Notes under the pieces: model-generated | What the model saw: the letters and a program-made list of their open reading frames with translations, nothing else | What the model was told of the DNA's origin: nothing | The model's database searches: none | Source: Acidobacteriota bacterium | GTDB taxonomy: Bacteria; Acidobacteriota; Terriglobia; Bryobacterales; Bryobacteraceae | Direction of reading: 5' to 3' | Length of the DNA stretch: 36,978 nt | NCBI GenBank assembly: GCA_016213775.1 | Contig: JACQZR010000107.1 | Location: 1 to 36,978 of the forward strand | Shown: positions 22,976 to 35,524 of the stretch, in pieces | Position numbering within the stretch: position 1 is the first letter of the stretch | Layout: each line of letters opens with the position of its first letter | Program-made: the position numbers and the translations under genes

Positions 22976-23875
22976 CTACCTCAAATTCACGCCCTGCCTG
23001 GTCAGGTAATCGTTCCAGCCTCGCACGGTGTGTTCGTCCGGCGGCTTCACCGATTCCGGCATGCGCGCCAGAAACCCAAGCCGCTGCAGCTTGGCGCGCC
23101 CCAACCTGTGGTACGGCAGCAACTCGACTCCCGCCAGGCGGGGCAGGGAGGCCGCCGTGCGCGCGATTCCGTCCAGGTGTTCCTTGCGCGCATTGAACTC
23201 CGGAATCATGGGGCAGCGGAGAAGGATGCGTGCCCCGGCGGCGTGCAGCTTTCGCAGATTCTCCAGGATCAGCTCGTTCGACTGCCCGGTGAACGCCTGG
23301 TGGAGGTGCGCGTCCGTCTCCTTGTAGTCGTAGAGGAACAAATCCACCAGAGGCAAAATGCTCTCCAACACTGCCCATTCGGCGAAGCCGGACGTCTCCA
23401 CGACGGTGTGCAACCCCTCCGCTTTCGCGGCTACGAGCAGCGCTTTGGCGAAGGCGGGCTGGTACAACGGTTCACCGCCCGATAGCGTCATGCCCCCGGT
23501 GGAGGCCTGATAGTATTCGCGGTCCCGCAGTACGACTGCCATCACTTCTTCAACAGCCGCATCGCGGCCGACCATCTCCAATGCTTTGGTATCGCACACG
23601 CCCGCACAGGCACCACAGGCGTCGCAGTACTGGCGTCCGAGGATTGCTTTGCCCGAGGACGTTCGCGCCAGCGCGCCTTTCGGGCACACATCGATGCACG
23701 CGTCACAGCCAATGCATTTCTCCTGCAGGAACGAGAGGTGTGGCGCCGGACTGATGCTCTCAGGGTTATGGCACCATTTGCAGTGCAAAGGGCAGCCTTT
23801 CAGAAACACGGTAGTGCGGATCCCCGGCCCGTCGTCGATGCAGAAACGCTGGATGTCGAAAATCCGCCCGGTCAT
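22976..23875 (-). CDS. Glycyl-radical enzyme activating protein (radical SAM)
   Basis: A 299-aa activase. The radical-SAM motif is CPLHCKWC (C28, C32, C35), holding the [4Fe-4S] cluster that cleaves S-adenosylmethionine. Two ferredoxin-type cluster sites follow: C54/C57/C60/C64 (CIGCDACIDVC) and C84/C87/C90/C94 (CDACGACAGVC). These are characteristic of activases other than the pyruvate formate-lyase one, such as those for glycerol or benzylsuccinate enzymes. It abstracts hydrogen from the glycine of its partner under anaerobic conditions, in the cytoplasm. It starts 6 nt after the stop of the partner gene. No export signal is present. Confidence 0.95.
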   Translation of the reverse strand: MTGRIFDIQRFCIDDGPGIRTTVFLKGCPLHCKWCHNPESISPAPHLSFLQEKCIGCDACIDVCPKGALARTSSGKAILGRQYCDACGACAGVCDTKALEMVGRDAAVEEVMAVVLRDREYYQASTGGMTLSGGEPLYQPAFAKALLVAAKAEGLHTVVETSGFAEWAVLESILPLVDLFLYDYKETDAHLHQAFTGQSNELILENLRKLHAAGARILLRCPMIPEFNARKEHLDGIARTAASLPRLAGVELLPYHRLGRAKLQRLGFLARMPESVKPPDEHTVRGWNDYLTRQGVNLR

Positions 23876-23881
23876 TTGTCC

Positions 23882-26164
23882 TCACATGTGCGCTGTGCGC
23901 GCGATGATCTCTTCCTGCATCTCCGGACTCAGGTTGACGAAGAATTCGCTAAACCCGGCGACGCGCACCACCAGGTCACGATACTGGGCAGGGTCCTTCT
24001 GCGCGGCTCGCAGCATCTCCGTGTCGATGGAATTGAGCTGCAGTTGCTGGCCGCCCTTATTGAAGTAGACATTCAGCATCGCGCGCACCTTTGCGCGGTT
24101 CGCCTTGTTGGCGAGCATGCTGTTCTGGAATCTCAGATTCACCTGGTAGCCGCTTTGCCAGCTCTTCGCCGCATTGAGCTTCGCGACGGAATTGAGAACC
24201 GCGGTGGGCCCGTTTCGCTCCACACCGGCGGATGCCGCCACCGAGCTTGCCAGTGGCGTGCCGGCCAGGCGGCCATCCGGAGTCGCTCCCGTGACCTTGC
24301 CAGTGAGCACCGCACCAGCTTTGGTGATGTGCGTGTTTCCGAACTTCGTGCCGTCGCGCGGGTCGCGGCAGATCGCCTTCACGGGTTCATCGCGCATCCG
24401 CTGCACCAGGTGGATGATGTCGTCGAGCCTGGGATCGTCGTTGCCATGCTTGGGCGCCGCCAGCAGTTTGCCGCGCAACCGCTCGTGGCCGTGAAAATTC
24501 GCTTTGCAGGCGGCGGCTACCTGATCGAGCGTCGCCTCCTTGCGCTGGTACACCACCTCGCGAATAGCCGCGAGGCAATCCACGGCGTTGGCGAAGAAGA
24601 CACCTCCACAGGAGAGGATGTTGTACTTCGTGCCCAGCACCATGTCGTGCGCGCCTTCGATGCAGCCGTCGAAAAAGCAGGACGTGAATGACGTGCGGCC
24701 CCATTGCAGCGTGGCCTTGAATACCGCCATGTGCTCGCGGTAGCTCCTCTCGATTCCCCGGCTCAGGTTCGTCCCCACGGCGGCCGCGAAGCTGTCAAAG
24801 GTGGCGGCTCCCGTACGCAGCGCCTGTTCGATGGACCGCAGGTAGTTCGCGCTTGCGCCCGGATTGAAGTAGGCTTGTCCCGGGATGGCGAGCTCGTTGC
24901 ACCCCACCGCGATGTAGTTGTAGGCGTCCTCACGCGACACTCCAAGTTCCATCAATCCTTGGGGCACCACCTTGTCGTTCCACATCAGCGGGAAGCAGGT
25001 GTGCTGGGCGATCCGGGAAAGGCAGAAGTCGAAGAACTCCTGGTTGATGCGGGGGTGCCATCGAATCCAGATCAGCGGCTCGGCGAGAGCCAGATTCGTA
25101 GCAGCCTCGATGAACAACCGCGAGAGGTGATTCGTCAGGTCATGCCCGTACGGAGTGGAACCGCCGACGCACAACGCCTGCGTCAGTTGGAGCGGCCCCC
25201 AATACGTGTTGTCGAGCATCTTGAGTACGAAGTTCTCGCAAAGGAGGAGAGCTTCGGCGTCGTTCAGCCGGCCGGCCTTCTTATCAGCCTCGTAATAGGG
25301 CAGCAGCAGACGGTCGATGTGGTCGGGCGCGCACGACCAGCCGTGCCCCTCGATATGGATGGCCTGATGAGCGAACCAGATCAACTGCAGCGCTTCATGG
25401 AAGGTCGACGGAGGTTCCGTGGCCACCTTCGCCGCGATGCGCGCGAGATCGCCCTTGAGGAACTCCGCGTATCGGCGTACCCACTCCGATACACCGCTCA
25501 GGGATTCCTCCGCGGCCGTGAGGAAAGCCAGGTTCCCGGCATCCCGCTCGCCGGCCTTCCGCTCGCGAACGCGCTTGAGGATCCCGCCAAGCCCAACCTT
25601 GAGTAATTCGCTGTAGCTGGGGCACAAGTGGCCCTGGTTGGAGACGAGTTTGTAGGGCGCCCGCCGTCCGGATTCCGGCGAAACGGGCGCGGGTCCGCCC
25701 GGATTGGAAGCCGCGAAACGGCCCCATAAATTACGCGTTTTCCAATACTCCCACACATCCCGCGGAACTTGCCCCTTCAGATACCCGCGCCACTGCGGAT
25801 TGATGTCGGTCCCCTCCTCGCCAAACCCCAACTCCGCCATCAGCGGCATTGATCCCGGGGTCTCCGAAATCGAGCCGGCCAGCCGGTCTCCAGGACGCAG
25901 GTATAGCGGCACAGTGCGCAGGTGCTCGCGCAACGCCATCCCCTTGCGGACCTCCCACGGCTTGCCCTCAGTCGCTTGAAAGACCTTGGTAAACACCCGG
26001 GCCCGGTGCAGCGCCACGCGGGGATAGTCGAGTGTGCTGAGGATGTTGGCGCGCAGTTCGCCGATTGCAGGATTCGACGGCCGGCTGACGCCGGCAAGCA
26101 CCGGAGCTGATGCCATCGCGGAAAGAAGGAACTCCCGCCGGGAAAGCGAGCGGTGAATCGTCAT
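23882..26164 (-). CDS. Glycyl-radical enzyme with apparent Tat signal
   Basis: A 760-aa member of the PFL/glycerol-dehydratase superfamily. The thiyl cysteine is C422 in YIAVGCNELA (a GCxE motif), and the radical glycine is G737 in RVAGFSEFF near the C-terminus; both are intact. The N-terminus reads SLSRREFLLSAMASAPVLAG, a textbook twin-arginine signal (SRRxFL, then a hydrophobic stretch), which is unexpected for an oxygen-sensitive enzyme activated in the cytoplasm. I chose the ATG at 26164; the TTG at 26188 would add eight residues and keep the signal. Partner activase follows in an operon. The substrate is unknown: the active site lacks the pyruvate formate-lyase Cys-Cys pair, suggesting a dehydratase, lyase or decarboxylase. 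Confidence 0.9.
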   Translation of the reverse strand: MTIHRSLSRREFLLSAMASAPVLAGVSRPSNPAIGELRANILSTLDYPRVALHRARVFTKVFQATEGKPWEVRKGMALREHLRTVPLYLRPGDRLAGSISETPGSMPLMAELGFGEEGTDINPQWRGYLKGQVPRDVWEYWKTRNLWGRFAASNPGGPAPVSPESGRRAPYKLVSNQGHLCPSYSELLKVGLGGILKRVRERKAGERDAGNLAFLTAAEESLSGVSEWVRRYAEFLKGDLARIAAKVATEPPSTFHEALQLIWFAHQAIHIEGHGWSCAPDHIDRLLLPYYEADKKAGRLNDAEALLLCENFVLKMLDNTYWGPLQLTQALCVGGSTPYGHDLTNHLSRLFIEAATNLALAEPLIWIRWHPRINQEFFDFCLSRIAQHTCFPLMWNDKVVPQGLMELGVSREDAYNYIAVGCNELAIPGQAYFNPGASANYLRSIEQALRTGAATFDSFAAAVGTNLSRGIERSYREHMAVFKATLQWGRTSFTSCFFDGCIEGAHDMVLGTKYNILSCGGVFFANAVDCLAAIREVVYQRKEATLDQVAAACKANFHGHERLRGKLLAAPKHGNDDPRLDDIIHLVQRMRDEPVKAICRDPRDGTKFGNTHITKAGAVLTGKVTGATPDGRLAGTPLASSVAASAGVERNGPTAVLNSVAKLNAAKSWQSGYQVNLRFQNSMLANKANRAKVRAMLNVYFNKGGQQLQLNSIDTEMLRAAQKDPAQYRDLVVRVAGFSEFFVNLSPEMQEEIIARTAHM

Positions 26165-26223
26165 GGAATTGCGATGATCTTCTCGCAATTGGAGGGCCGT
26201 TCTGTCCAGGCGCGCCCCCCCCT

Positions 26224-28702: not shown

Positions 28703-31700
28703 TCACCTGTGCAGCCACATCCGCAAAGCCGAAAGCAACTGCTCCGTGTTCACGGGCTTCGCCAGATACTCCGACGCTCCTGCTTCGAGACACTTCTCTC
28801 TGTCTCCCTTCATTGCTTTCGCGGTCAAGGCGATAATCGGCAGCCGCCGCCAGATCGAGTTCCTCCGAATCGTCTGGATGGTCTCGTACCCATCCATCTC
28901 CGGCATCATGATGTCCATCAGCACGATACTAATGTTGGGCGTCGACTCCAACACCGCCAGCGCTTCGTGCCCTGTGCTCGCCGTCTGCACATGCATTCCA
29001 TGGCGCTCCAAGACGCTGCTCAGGGCAAAGATGTTCCGGACGTCGTCGTCCACAACCAGCACCAGCTTATCCACCAGGTCCTCATCCGACTGGTGGAGCC
29101 TCTCGATCATCTCCTGCTTCTCCCGTGGCAATGCAGTCGTCACCCGGTGCAGGAACAGCGCGGTCTCGTCCAACAATCTTTCCGGCGATTCCACTCCCTT
29201 CACCACCACGCTTCGGGCGATGGTGTGCAATTGCGCGTCTTCATCCGGCGACAGCTCTTTGCCGGTGAACACCACCACGGGAATGTCGCGCAGCGTTTCG
29301 TCCGATCCCACTTTGTCGAGCACTTCAAAGCCCGACATGTCGGGCAGGCGCAGATCGAGGACAACGCAGTCGAATGGCTGCTCTTTCAGTTTCGAAAGTG
29401 CCTCGTTGCCGGATTCCGCTCTAAAGATCTCGATGTCATCGTGCTCCAGCAATACACGAATACTCATCTGCTCGGAAGGGTCGTCTTCCACCACCAGCAG
29501 GCGGCGCCGCCGCGGTGTGGAGTACTCCTTGATGCGGTTGAGTGCTTCCTGCAACCCATCGCGTGTCGCCGGCTTCGTCAGGAAGTTGAACGCGCCGCGC
29601 GCCAGACCATGCTGGCGGTCTTCATCGAGAGTGACGATTTGCACTGGAATATGGCGCATCGCGGGATCCTGCTTGAGCTGGCTTAGTACCGTCCAGCCGA
29701 GCATATCAGGCAGGAAGACGTCCAGTGAGACTGCGGTCGGACGATAACGCCGCGCCAAATCGAGCGCGTCCAGGCCTTTCATCGCCACAAGCACTTTGAA
29801 CCCTTGCGCCCGGGCCAGGTCCACCAACACACGGCAATAGTGCGGCTCGTCCTCCACAATCAGCAGCACGTCGTCGCCGGCCTGCAAATCCGCCCGATCA
29901 TCTGCGATGTGCTCGACAACCCGCTCAGGGGTTCGCACCGCCGGAAGCTGCCGCCCCTTTGCCGGCTCGCGCGATTGCAGCGTGCTCATCGAGGGACCCA
30001 TGTAGTGCGACGGCAGGTACAGTGTGAAATTGCTACCCGCGCCGGGCGTGCTGCGCAACTGGATTTCGCCGCCCAACAAATAAGCCAGCTCACGGCTGAT
30101 CGCCAACCCCAGCCCCGTTCCGCCATACTTCCGGCTGGTACTCGCATCGGCTTGCTGGAACGCCTCGAATATGATCTTCTGTTTCTCGAGTGGAATTCCA
30201 ATTCCTGTGTCCGAGACATCAAATGACAGCACCGAACCCGCCGCCGATAGTATTGGATGCCCGCTGCTCCATCCGGTTGTCGCCGCCGCGACGCGCAACT
30301 TGACTCCGCCGCGATCGGTGAACTTGAACGCGTTTGACAGCAGGTTCTTCAGCACCTGCATCAGCCGCTTGGAATCGGTGGTCAAGCCCCGGCCCAAGCC
30401 AGGCTCCAGGTGCACCTCGAACAGCAGACCGCGGTTTTCCGCTTCGTGCCGGAACGATCGGTCCACCGTTTCCAGTAAACGGTCAAACGGAATCTCCTCC
30501 GCATCCACCGTTACCGTTCCCGATTCGATCTTCGACAGGTCGAGAATGTCGCTGATGAGGTTCAACAGGTCGGTGCCCGCGCTATGGATGGTCCGCGCGA
30601 ATTCCGTTTGGCGCGCGGTCAGATTCCCCTCGGGATTATCGCCAAGCTGCTGCCCTAAGATAAGGATGCTGTTCAGCGGCGTTCGCAGCTCATGCGACAT
30701 ATTCGCCAGAAACTCCGATTTGTACTTCGACGTCAGGGCCAGCTCGTCCGCCTTTTCCTCCAGCGCGCGCCGTGCCTGCTCAATCTGTTGATTCTTCCGC
30801 TCCACTTCCACGTTCTGTTCCGCCAGTTGCTGGGCCTTCTGGGCGAGTTGCTCGTTCTTTTCCTGGAGTTCCTTCTGCTGGGTCTGCAATTCGCCGGCGA
30901 GCTGTTGGGACTGCTTCAGGAGCGCCTCGGTTTTCATCGTCGCTTCAATGCTGTTCAACACGATCCCGATACTCGCGGTCAACTGCTCGAGAAACGCCAG
31001 ATGCGATGCCGTGAAGATACTGAACGATGCCAGCTCGATCACCGCCTTGGCCTGGTTCTCGAAAAGCACGGGCAGCACTACAATGTTGCGGGGCGACGAC
31101 TCGTACAATCCCGAACGTATCGGCACCGTCGACGGCGGAATGTCGGTCACGAGCATTGTTTCCTTCTCGATGGCGCATTGTCCCACCATCCCCTGGCCGA
31201 GGCGAAGCCGATCGGGAAGTCCATCCCCGTTCGAATTACTGGCGTAGGAGGCCAGCAAGCTCAACGCCGGCTGGTCGGACTCCGAGTCCATGTTGTAAAT
31301 CACGCTCCGCTGGGCATTCACCAACGGTGTCAGCTCTGACAGCAGGGTGCGTCCAACCGTTCCCAGATCGCGCTGTCCCTGCAACATGCCGGTTACTCGG
31401 GCGAGGTTCGTTTTGAGCCAGTCCTGTTCGCTGTTGCGCTCCGTCGTCAGGCGGAGGTTAGTGATCATCGTGTTGATGTTGTCCTTCAGTTCGGCCACCT
31501 CGCCGCGCGCTTCCACCTGGATCGAACGTGTCAGGTCGCCCTTGGTCACCGCAGTGGCCACCTCCGCGATCGCGCGCACCTGCGTTGTCAGGTTCGCCGC
31601 AAGCAGGTTCACGTTCCCAGTCAGATCCTTCCACGTGCCCTCGGTGCCGGGAACGTTCGCCTGTCCACCCAGCCTACCTTCGACGCCCACTTCTCTTGCC

Positions 31701-34700
31701 ACGCTGGTCACCTGGTCGGCAAACGTCGCCAGGGTATAGGTCATATTATTGATCGTCGCAGCCAGCGCCGCCACCTCACCTTTCGCCTTTACGGTGAGGT
31801 TCTGCTTCAAGTCCCCGTTGGCAACGGCCGTAACTACTTTCACGATGCCGCGCACCTGCTCGGTCAGGTTCGCGGCCATCACGTTCACGTTGTCGGTCAA
31901 GTCTTTCCATGTGCCGGCGACTCCCGGCACCTGCGCCTGGCCGCCGAGGTTCCCGTCGGTTCCCACCTCGCGGGCCACACGCGTCACTTCCGCGGCGAAC
32001 GCGTTGAGCTGGTCCACCATCGTGTTGATGGTGTTCTTCAACTCCAGGATTTCGCCCTTCACGTCCACCGTGATTTTGCGCGACAGATCGCCGCGCGCCA
32101 CCGCTGTTGTCACTTCCGCGATGTTGCGCACCTGAGTAGTCAGGTTGGCGGCCAGCAGGTTCACGTTGTCCGTCAAGTCCTTCCAGGTACCCGCGACTCC
32201 GGGCACCACCGCCTGTCCGCCCAGCCTGCCGTCGGTTCCCACCTCGCGCGCCACGCGTGTCACCTCCGCCGCGAACGACCGCAACTGCTCGACCATCGTG
32301 TTGATGGTTTCCTTGAGCTGCAGAATCTCGCCGCGCACGTCCACCGTGATCTTCTTCGACAAGTCTCCATTGGCGATCGCCGTCGACACCTCGGCGATGT
32401 TGCGCACCTGCGCCGTCAGGTTGCTGGCCATGAAATTGACGCTGTCCGTGAGATCCTTCCACGTACCGGCAACGCCGGGCACCGCGGCCTGGCCGCCGAG
32501 CTTTCCGTCGGTACCCACTTCGCGCGCCACGCGTGTTACTTCGGATGCGAATGCGTTCAACTGCACAACCATCGTGTTCATCGTGTTCTTCAACTCGAGG
32601 ATTTCGCCCTTCACATCCACGGTGATCTTGCGCGACAGATCGCCACGCGCCACTGCGGTGGTCACCTCGGCGATGTTGCGCACCTGCGCAGTCAGGTTCC
32701 CGGCCATCGAGTTCACGCTGTCGGTCAAATCCTTCCACGTGCCGGCCACGCCAGGCACCTTCGCCTGTCCACCCAGGCGCCCTTCCGGTCCCACTTCGCG
32801 CGCCACGCGCGTCACTTCACCCGCGAAGGCATTGAGCTGGTCCACCATCGTGTTGAGCGTTTCTTTCAACTGGAGGATCTCACCGCGTACGTCCACGGTG
32901 ATCTTGCGCGACAAATCGCCGCTGGCGATGGCGCCCGCCACCTCGGCGATGTTTCGCACCTGCGCCGTCAGATTGCCTGCCATCGAGTTCACGCTGTCGG
33001 TGAGATCCTTCCACGTACCGGCAACGCCCGGTACCGCAGCCTGCCCGCCGAGTTTGCCGTCCGTTCCCACTTCGCGGGCGACGCGCGTCACTTCCGCCGC
33101 GAAGGCATTCAACTGGTCCACCATTGTGTTCAGGGTCTCTTTCAACTGCAGGATCTCCCCGCGGACGTCCACAGTGATCTTGCGCGACAGATCTCCCTTC
33201 GCCACCGCCGTGGCTACTTCTGCGATGTTGCGCACCTGCGCGGTAAGGTTGCTCGCCATCGAGTTCACGCTGTCGGTGAGATCCTTCCACGTACCGGCAA
33301 CGCCCGACACCTGTGCCTGCCCGCCGAGCTTGCCGTCTGTTCCCACCTCGCGGGCGACGCGCGTCACTTCCGACGAGAACGCGTTGAGCTGATCCACCAT
33401 GGTGTTGATGGTGTTCTTCAACTCGAGGATCTCGCCCTTCACGTCCACGGTGATCTTGCGCGACAAATCGCCGCGGGCCACGGCGGTGGTGACTTCGGCG
33501 ATGTTGCGCACCTGCGCAGTGAGGTTGTTGGCCATCGAGTTCACGCTGTCGGTGAGATCCTTCCACGTGCCGGCAACCCCGCGCACATCCGCCTGTCCGC
33601 CCAACCGTCCGTCGGTACCCACCTCGCGAGCGACGCGCGTGACTTCACCGGCAAACGCATTCAACTGGTCCACCATCGTGTTGACGGTCTCTTTAAGCTG
33701 CAGAATCTCGCCGCTCACGCTCACCGTGATCTTGCGCGACAAATCTCCGCTGGCGATCGCCGTCGCTACTTCCGCGATGTTTCTCACCTGCGCCGTCAGG
33801 TTGCTCGCCATGAAGTTGACGTTGTCTGTCAAATCTTTCCATGTCCCCGCGACTCCCGGCACCTGAGCCTGGCCGCCCAGTTTGCCGTCGGTTCCCACCT
33901 CGCGGGCGACGCGCGTCACTTCCGACGCAAAGGAGTTGAGCTGGTCCACCATCGTGTTGATGGTGTTCTTCAGCTCGAGAATCTCTCCGCGCACATCTAC
34001 CGTGATCTTGCGCGACAAATCGCCGCGCGCCACTGCCGTCGTCACGTCCGCGATGTTGCGCACCTGCGCCGTCAGGTTGTTCGCCATGAAATTGACGTTG
34101 TCGGTCAAATCCTTCCACGTCCCCGCCGCGCCCGGTACAATCGCCTGCCCTCCCAACCGCCCTTCCGTTCCTACTTCTCTCGCCACGCGCGTCACTTCGC
34201 TGGCAAACGATCGCAACTGTTCCACCATCGAGTTGATCGCTTCTTTGAGCTGGAGGATCTCCCCGCGCACATCGGCAGTAATTTTCTTGGAGAGGTCGCC
34301 GCTCGCCACCGCAATCGTCACTTCCGCGATGTTGCGCACCTGGGTGGTGAGGTTGCTCGCCATCAGGTTCACGTTTTCCGTGAGATCCTTCCACACCCCG
34401 CTTACTTCGCGCACCTGCGCCTGTCCGCCCAGCTTGCCGTCCGTCCCCACCTCTCTGGCCACGCGTGTCACTTCTCCGGCGAACGCATTCAACTGGTCCA
34501 CCATCGTGTTCATCGTTTCCTTGAGCTGGAGAATCTCGCCGCTCACGTCGACGGTGATCTTGCGCGACAAATCGCCGCGCGCCACTGCCGTTGTCACGTC
34601 CGCGATATTCCGCACCTGCGCCGTCAGGTTGCCGCACATTGCGTTCACTGAATCCGTCAGATCTTTCCATGTGCCCGCAACACCCGGTACCACCGCCTGA

Positions 34701-35524
34701 CCGCCCAGGCGCCCTTCCGTTCCCACTTCGCGAGCCACGCGCGTCACTTCGCTGGCAAACGATCGCAACTGGTCCACCATTGTGTTGATGGCTTCTTTGA
34801 GCTGGAGGATCTCCCCGCGGACGTCCACTGTGATCTTCTTCGAAAGATCGCCGCTGGCCACTGCGATGGTCACCTCAGAGATGTTCCGCACCTGCGCCGT
34901 CAGGTTGCTCGCCATCAGGTTCACGTTTTGCGTCAGGTCCTTCCACACCCCGCTGACTTCCTTCACCTCCGCCTGACCGCCCAGCTTGCCGTCGGTTCCC
35001 ACTTCCCTCGCCACGCGCGTCACTTCGGAGGTGAACACCACAAGCTGTTGGATCATCGTGTTGACGATCGTCGCCGAGCCGAAGAACTCTCCTTCCAGCG
35101 CCCGGCCATCCAGTTCCAGGGGCACCGTCCGTAGCAGATCCCCTTGGGCCACCGCCGAAACCGAGCGCGTCAACTCCGTAATCGGCCATAGCAGATCGTC
35201 GATCAGGCCGTTCATCGAGTCTTCCATCTCGCCCCACGACCCGCTCCTGCGCTCGAACCGCACCCGCTGGCTCGTCTGGCCCTTCTTGCCCACTACAGAG
35301 CCCACGCGGTTCAGTTCGGCCGCCATGCGCTGGTTGGCCATGACGATCTCGTTGAACGTGTCCGCGATCTTGCCCTCGATTCCGGTACGGTGGCCGGGCA
35401 GCCTCACGGAGAAGTCGCCGTCCCGCACTGCTTGCAGCGCCGTCAGCAGTTCCCTGTTATAGTCACCCGTTGCTTTGCGCGACGTGCGCACTCCTGTGGG
35501 GCGTACCGGTGCTGCTATGCTCAT
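28703..35524 (-). CDS. Giant poly-HAMP hybrid histidine kinase (Nik1/Os-1-like)
   Basis: A 2273-aa protein with no membrane segments. After a degenerate HAMP-like start (1-166) come thirteen tandem 92-residue units (167-1362) with the core [10 protein letters not shown]...LGGQA...[18 protein letters not shown]. This matches the repeats of fungal group III kinases (Nik1/Os-1), which usually have five to nine. Then follow a GAF domain (about 1380-1525), a Gln/Glu-rich coiled coil (1530-1600), HisKA with H1611 ([11 protein letters not shown]), HATPase (about 1720-1840) and three receivers ([27 protein letters not shown]). AGGAGG precedes the ATG. In fungi these kinases sense osmotic or turgor stress; the stimulus here is unknown. 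Confidence 0.95.
31439..35026 (-). repeat. Thirteen in-phase 276-bp repeats (HAMP array)
   Basis: The coding array consists of 13 units of exactly 276 bp without indels. Units alternate between subtypes, for example GDLSKKIT with [10 protein letters not shown] and GDLSRKIT with [10 protein letters not shown], and some non-adjacent units look closer than neighbours. Units 12 and 13 and the part before unit 1 are the most diverged, as expected of an array that expands from the middle. Confidence 0.9.

Follow-up and report, generated by a model that had tools for sequence, protein, structure and literature searches.

A twin-arginine signal on a clade of glycyl radical enzymes from Acidobacteriota and Verrucomicrobiota suggests a candidate Tat substrate

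Glycyl radical enzymes (GREs) depend on a protein radical that is cut by O2 and is installed by an iron-sulfur enzyme needing a cytoplasmic reductant. To our knowledge, GREs characterised so far act in the cytoplasm or inside a cytoplasmic microcompartment. The twin-arginine (Tat) pathway transports folded proteins. These subjects meet in a 36,978-nucleotide stretch of a genome of the Acidobacteriota (the window, meaning the whole stretch of DNA analysed), where a GRE gene begins with a twin-arginine segment. The locus raises the question of whether a GRE can be targeted to the Tat translocase and, if so, what chemistry it would perform outside the cytoplasm. In searches of the open-licence literature, no listed title or abstract opening described an exported GRE or a GRE as Tat substrate; mentions deeper in the listed papers and reports elsewhere may have been missed.

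An intact GRE beside its activase

The features of the window that bear on this question are the following.

23882..26164, minus strand: gene for the 760-aa glycyl radical enzyme, from its ATG through the stop codon
26066..26164, minus strand: Tat-type signal at the N-terminus, spanning residues 1 to about 33 and lying ahead of the catalytic domain (Pfam, pLDDT, uncharged run)
26123..26143, minus strand: twin-arginine motif SRREFLL, residues 8-14 ([ST]RRxFL kept in orthologues)
24899..24901, minus strand: catalytic cysteine Cys422 (GCNE), aligned with the GCVE motif of glycerol dehydratase
24893-24895, minus strand: general-base Glu424, invariant in the 8-row alignment
23954..23956, minus strand: radical glycine Gly737 (RVAGFSEFF), invariant in the 30-row alignment
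22976..23875, minus strand: radical-SAM GRE activase with two extra 4Fe-4S cluster motifs and no signal peptide (TIGR02494)

The initial annotation placed the GRE at 23882..26188. A minus-strand open reading frame of 768 aa exists there, but its TTG start at 26188 was not upheld: the ATG at 26164 is the likelier start, since in most orthologues an ATG stands a few codons 5' of the twin-arginine motif. The Pfam PFL-like domain covers residues 34-588 (320.1 bits, far above the cut-off) and the Gly_radical domain (PF01228) residues 639-743 (83.8 bits against a cut-off of 22.2). The catalytic cysteine and radical glycine, described at the outset as intact, are indeed so, as Cys422 and Gly737, and the cysteine is invariant in both the 8-row and the 30-row alignments. 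The protein combines an RVxG[FWY] glycine domain, a barrel-loop cysteine, the GRE fold and a radical-SAM activase, the hallmarks of the superfamily, and is confirmed as an intact GRE whose glycyl radical and turnover are predictions from sequence. By fold and active site it is an eliminase-type GRE without a named specificity. When the host's own 10.96-Mb genome was searched with this protein, the sole match was the protein itself. A sigma-70 promoter scan near the GRE operon returned 0 sites and carries no information.

The activase scores 346.2 bits against TIGR02494 (GRE-activating protein; cut-off 174.35). Its ATG lies 6 nt beyond the GRE stop codon (TGA), and its N-terminus, MTGRIFDIQRF, has no extension, which bears out the earlier description of a signal-less activase 6 nt downstream. 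In 10 of the 13 genomes of the ortholog set, the gene that follows the GRE is the activase, no more than about 135 nt off; the contigs of the remaining three end within or shortly after the GRE, that of G027 inside it. The roughly 180-200 nt between GRE and contig end in G539 and G834 contain no activase start. In G834, short tandem repeats begin directly 3' of the GRE stop and run to the contig end (L080 1-180).

Conservation of the twin-arginine N-terminus

In the window protein, the segment in question precedes the Pfam catalytic domain, which begins at residue 34, and the only residues with pLDDT below 50 are 1-24. An uncharged run of 16 residues follows the arginine pair; by eye, no clean AxA cleavage site is seen. 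The host genome encodes one TatC (PF00902, 200.4 bits, contig C298 of G000). Neither TIGR01409 nor PF10518 matched the N-terminus of the window protein or that of G539.

The ortholog set comprises 13 genomes including the window's, at identities of at least 56%, from Bryobacterales-type Acidobacteriota and from Verrucomicrobiota, part of them placed in a phylum by kinship. The other 12 orthologues are 57-81% (BLAST) or 60-83% (search-reported) identical to the window protein. Of 237 genomes in the window's family, 6 carry an orthologue (G000, G010, G027, G028, G030 and G999). Among 396 sampled genomes of the window's phylum, with at most two candidates per genome scored, there was none besides the window's own, the next best match being 33% identical. 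Among 387 genomes sampled from the phylum to which the Verrucomicrobia MAG G539 belongs, four have an orthologue (G539, G556, G758 and G834); further searches added G1078 and G1113, and a collection scan added G540. The G539 reading frame (L022 5824-6945 / L077) contains an in-frame TAG, which could be a sequencing error or mark a pseudogene.

The N-terminus could be read in 11 of the 13. The contig of G1113 breaks off too early to include it, and G999 was also left out; the G999 match begins 119 nt from a contig end and is preceded by unrelated bases. In 10 of these 11, the window included, [ST]RRxFL is followed by a weakly hydrophobic stretch, and the 10 are spread over two phyla. Orthologues that all begin downstream of the signal, the outcome that the initial annotation had named as refuting its claim, were thus not found. 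The surrounding N-terminal region varies in sequence and length between orthologues, and the RR and FL residues are constant in all 10. Over these 10 sequences the first arginine is encoded by CGG, CGC and CGT, the second by the same three codons, the phenylalanine by two codons and the leucine by four, with the residues invariant. As the arginines are unchanged despite three codons each, we conclude from the codon comparison that the twin-arginine motif is translated and under selection at the protein level.

This pattern also decides on the start codon. An extension lying untranslated upstream of a true downstream start would be compatible with M17 (ATG) and V22 (GTG), both inside the extension, and with the lack, by eye, of a strong Shine-Dalgarno sequence before the ATG at 26164. 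The synonymous changes at kept residues in 10 orthologues indicate translation of the motif, and we reject this scarcely credible reading on that basis.

As controls we took 59 non-orthologous GRE loci, the best-scoring ones rather than a random draw, and dropped 7 partial loci to leave 52. None of the 52 has the motif before the catalytic core (at least 110 residues were inspected for the 15 short-type GREs), and this contrast with the 10 of 11 readable N-termini of the orthologues rules out a chance motif. Under a looser twin-arginine rule of the TATFIND kind, all 10 signals pass, G540 and G758 only via a second uncharged run (by eye), and so do 2 of the 52 controls, both on conserved core-domain residues. 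Scores from the curated Tat models are lower. TIGR01409 matched 6 of the 10 N-termini, two at or over the cut-off, and PF10518 matched 5 of the 8 given to it, none over the cut-off; combined, the two models matched 8 of 10, mostly weakly. With model matches mostly below cut-offs and the window's own N-terminus unmatched, the evidence for targeting is strong from sequence conservation and moderate from single-sequence Tat prediction. Targeting by a Tat-type signal is strongly supported by this conservation, and the original claim of such a signal on an intact GRE paired with an adjacent signal-less activase is confirmed. The interpretation attached to that claim is supported in part, for targeting.

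The one readable N-terminus without the motif is that of G834, which fails the looser rule; PF10518, given this N-terminus and that of a sulfatase from G027, matched neither. In a tree of 30 GREs (quick method, midpoint root), all eight orthologues in the analysis fall into a single clade (support 100), G834 branching first and the other seven grouped with support of 93. The simplest reading of this topology is that the signal was gained once within the clade; loss of the signal in G834 is possible.

An extension that is merely an inherited, idle Tat signal on a cytoplasmic GRE like the others would be in keeping with the low scores of most signals, which fall under the curated Tat cut-offs, and with the G834 enzyme, which does without one. 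An idle segment would drift, however, and the RR and FL residues have stayed unchanged in 10 sequences through synonymous codon changes while their surroundings varied. We regard an idle signal as quite unlikely.

Searches in Verrucomicrobiota also returned many short GRE-like reading frames of about 660-750 aa that match only from about query residue 178 (many of loci L048-L068), and some genomes gave more than 20 first-look candidates (G555, G752, G770). This looks like a separate large GRE expansion.

Gene neighbourhood and proposed function

In the Verrucomicrobiota the GRE gene is part of a sugar cluster. The aldolase DeoC is encoded no more than about 6 kb from the GRE in 7 of the 13 genomes (G010, G540, G556, G758, G834, G1078 and G1113), that is, in six of seven Verrucomicrobiota against one of six Bryobacterales-type genomes (G010), on contigs several of which span 3 to 9 kb and with three of the six Bryobacterales-type contigs below 10 kb. 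Both DeoC proteins that were scored exceed the equivalog cut-off of TIGR00126, and DeoC occurs near the GRE in at least four layouts. A search of the host genome for the dedicated DeoC gave relatives away from the GRE (44% on contig C106 and 29% on C274). An AP_endonuc_2 TIM-barrel gene sits beside the GRE in G540, G556, G758, G834, G1078 and G1113, a ROK kinase is nearby in G010, G556 and G1078, and a Gfo/Idh oxidoreductase in G556, G1078 and G1113. Relatives of GntR are found near the GRE in G010, G556, G758 and G1078, of UTRA type where tested (G010, G758). In G556 and G1078 the GntR, Gfo/Idh, ROK, TIM-barrel and DeoC genes are divergent from a sulfatase-GRE-activase group.

Other genes were seen on these contigs. 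In G758, a protein with a 3-keto-disaccharide hydrolase domain (L086 5084-6583) shares the contig with the GRE and sulfatases, in line with a region of sugar catabolism. An Oar-like TonB-type receptor, split over two reading frames, lies directly upstream of the GRE in G010 (L076 5579-9108), and another Oar-like, TonB-type receptor follows the activase in G999 (L083 2042-5461, OMP_b-brl_4). The window itself encodes, at 28703-35524 on the minus strand, a hybrid histidine kinase of 2273 aa in which very similar repeats, HAMP-like by eye, follow one another over a long stretch. The window's GntR and ABC-transporter genes downstream of the activase were considered as partners of the GRE and set aside because they are not seen beside the orthologues.

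Sulfatase relatives are encoded near the GRE in G027, G556, G758, G834 and G1078. By eye, the N-termini of four of them (G556, G1078, G758 and G027) resemble export signals. The sulfatase of G834, only about 26% identical to that of G027, starts with MKAILVMYDS and has no signal, like the G834 GRE; the joint lack of signals on these two adjacent gene products suggests, from this one genome, that GRE and sulfatase share a compartment.

Alternatively, the signal could serve an end other than release: an uncleaved twin-arginine segment could dock the GRE to the cytoplasmic side of the membrane or to TatBC, with catalysis remaining in the cytoplasm beside the activase. Such docking would suit the anoxic, reducing site that GRE activation generally requires, and no obvious AxA site is visible by eye in the signals of the window protein, G030 and G010. 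Against it, the signals of G028, G556 and G1078 terminate in AxA-like sites (by eye), sulfatases adjacent to signal-bearing GREs start with what look by eye like export signals, and the GRE signals are modestly hydrophobic, as is typical of Tat export signals; the best 12-residue mean Kyte-Doolittle value is 1.48-1.88, measured on nine of the ten signals. We consider membrane docking unlikely.

In the export reading, which we prefer, the cytoplasmic activase would abstract a hydrogen from Gly737 and the Tat translocase would move the folded, radical-bearing GRE to the cell envelope. Sulfatases would release a sugar or polyol in the same compartment. The GRE would eliminate water, or a different C-O leaving group, from this compound and so form a deoxy-sugar. 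After import, the deoxy-sugar would be modified by the Gfo/Idh and TIM-barrel enzymes, and the ROK kinase would then phosphorylate it for cleavage by DeoC. By chemical reasoning from the gene set, dehydration of a terminal diol would give a 2-deoxy-aldose and therefore a substrate for a kinase and then DeoC. In this scheme export itself, activity outside the cytoplasm and the substrate and deoxy-sugar product are inferred. That this clade-specific eliminase- or dehydratase-type GRE is a Tat substrate that acts in the envelope and yields a deoxy-sugar has, in our estimate, an even chance of being correct. The full scheme, with the radical installed inside and the GRE at work outside on a sulfatase-released sugar or polyol so as to feed a kinase and DeoC aldolase pathway, is offered tentatively as falling just short of evens.

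A further alternative accepts export and has the GRE act alone on a small diol or amine, the sugar cluster of its relatives being coincidental or belonging to the sulfatases. The cluster partners are absent from the 37-kb window, from 18 kb around the G030 gene and from the 17-kb G539 contig, so that the window gene and G030 have no sugar cluster in the stretches read. Structure scores tie between glycerol dehydratase, CutC, YbiW and PflD. Recurrence of DeoC near the GRE in six of seven Verrucomicrobiota and in G010, in its several layouts, speaks against coincidence, and a small diol or amine substrate seems to us improbable.

The host has three genes of the haem-copper oxidase family (PF00115), a family that also includes NO reductases, and probably respires O2 at times; given these three genes, an exported glycyl radical could meet O2. 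If the envelope reading is true, it would give glycyl radical chemistry a new site and probably a new substrate. A conserved export-type signal on a whole GRE clade would mean either that a protein radical can survive Tat export and act in the envelope or that Tat signals can have a different role on such enzymes. The link with sulfatase, ROK kinase and DeoC in the relatives points to an undescribed route of radical sugar breakdown in Acidobacteriota and Verrucomicrobiota.

Comparison with known GREs and Tat substrates

Several named functions were considered for the window GRE. Pyruvate formate-lyase proper has two adjacent active-site cysteines and is ruled out by the single cysteine in GCNE and by a TIGR01255 score of 93.8 bits against a cut-off of 994.2. 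Choline TMA-lyase CutC is ruled out by a TIGR04394 score of 257.3 bits against a cut-off of 1050; Asp216 of CutC, presumably the residue contacting choline, aligns with His179. The B12-independent glycerol dehydratase of Clostridium butyricum (PDB 1r8w) shares the GCxE motif together with a His and a Ser, and differs in that its Tyr339 aligns with Thr328 and its Asp447, which we take to be the diol-binding active-site Asp, aligns with Pro435, invariant in the 8-row alignment. Proline at the diol-binding position rules out a glycerol or propanediol dehydratase, and we know of no Tat signal in the B12-independent glycerol dehydratase family.

Close comparisons also include Tat-type exported enzymes of the same genomes, such as the sulfatase beside the G027 GRE. 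This sulfatase is not a GRE, and by eye it has a twin-arginine motif and weakly hydrophobic stretch like those of the signal-bearing GREs; PF10518 left it unmatched, as it did the window GRE. Among GREs of sugar-like compounds, YbiW and PflD have been solved with 1,5-anhydrohexitol 6-phosphates (PDB 8id7, 8id0) and are taken as cytoplasmic enzymes acting on a phosphorylated substrate. The window GRE scores 268.9 bits against NF007437, named formate C-acetyltransferase and presumably PflD, where the cut-off is 1109. In contrast to YbiW and PflD, the clade of the window GRE is marked by a Tat-type signal and is often accompanied by a separate ROK kinase.
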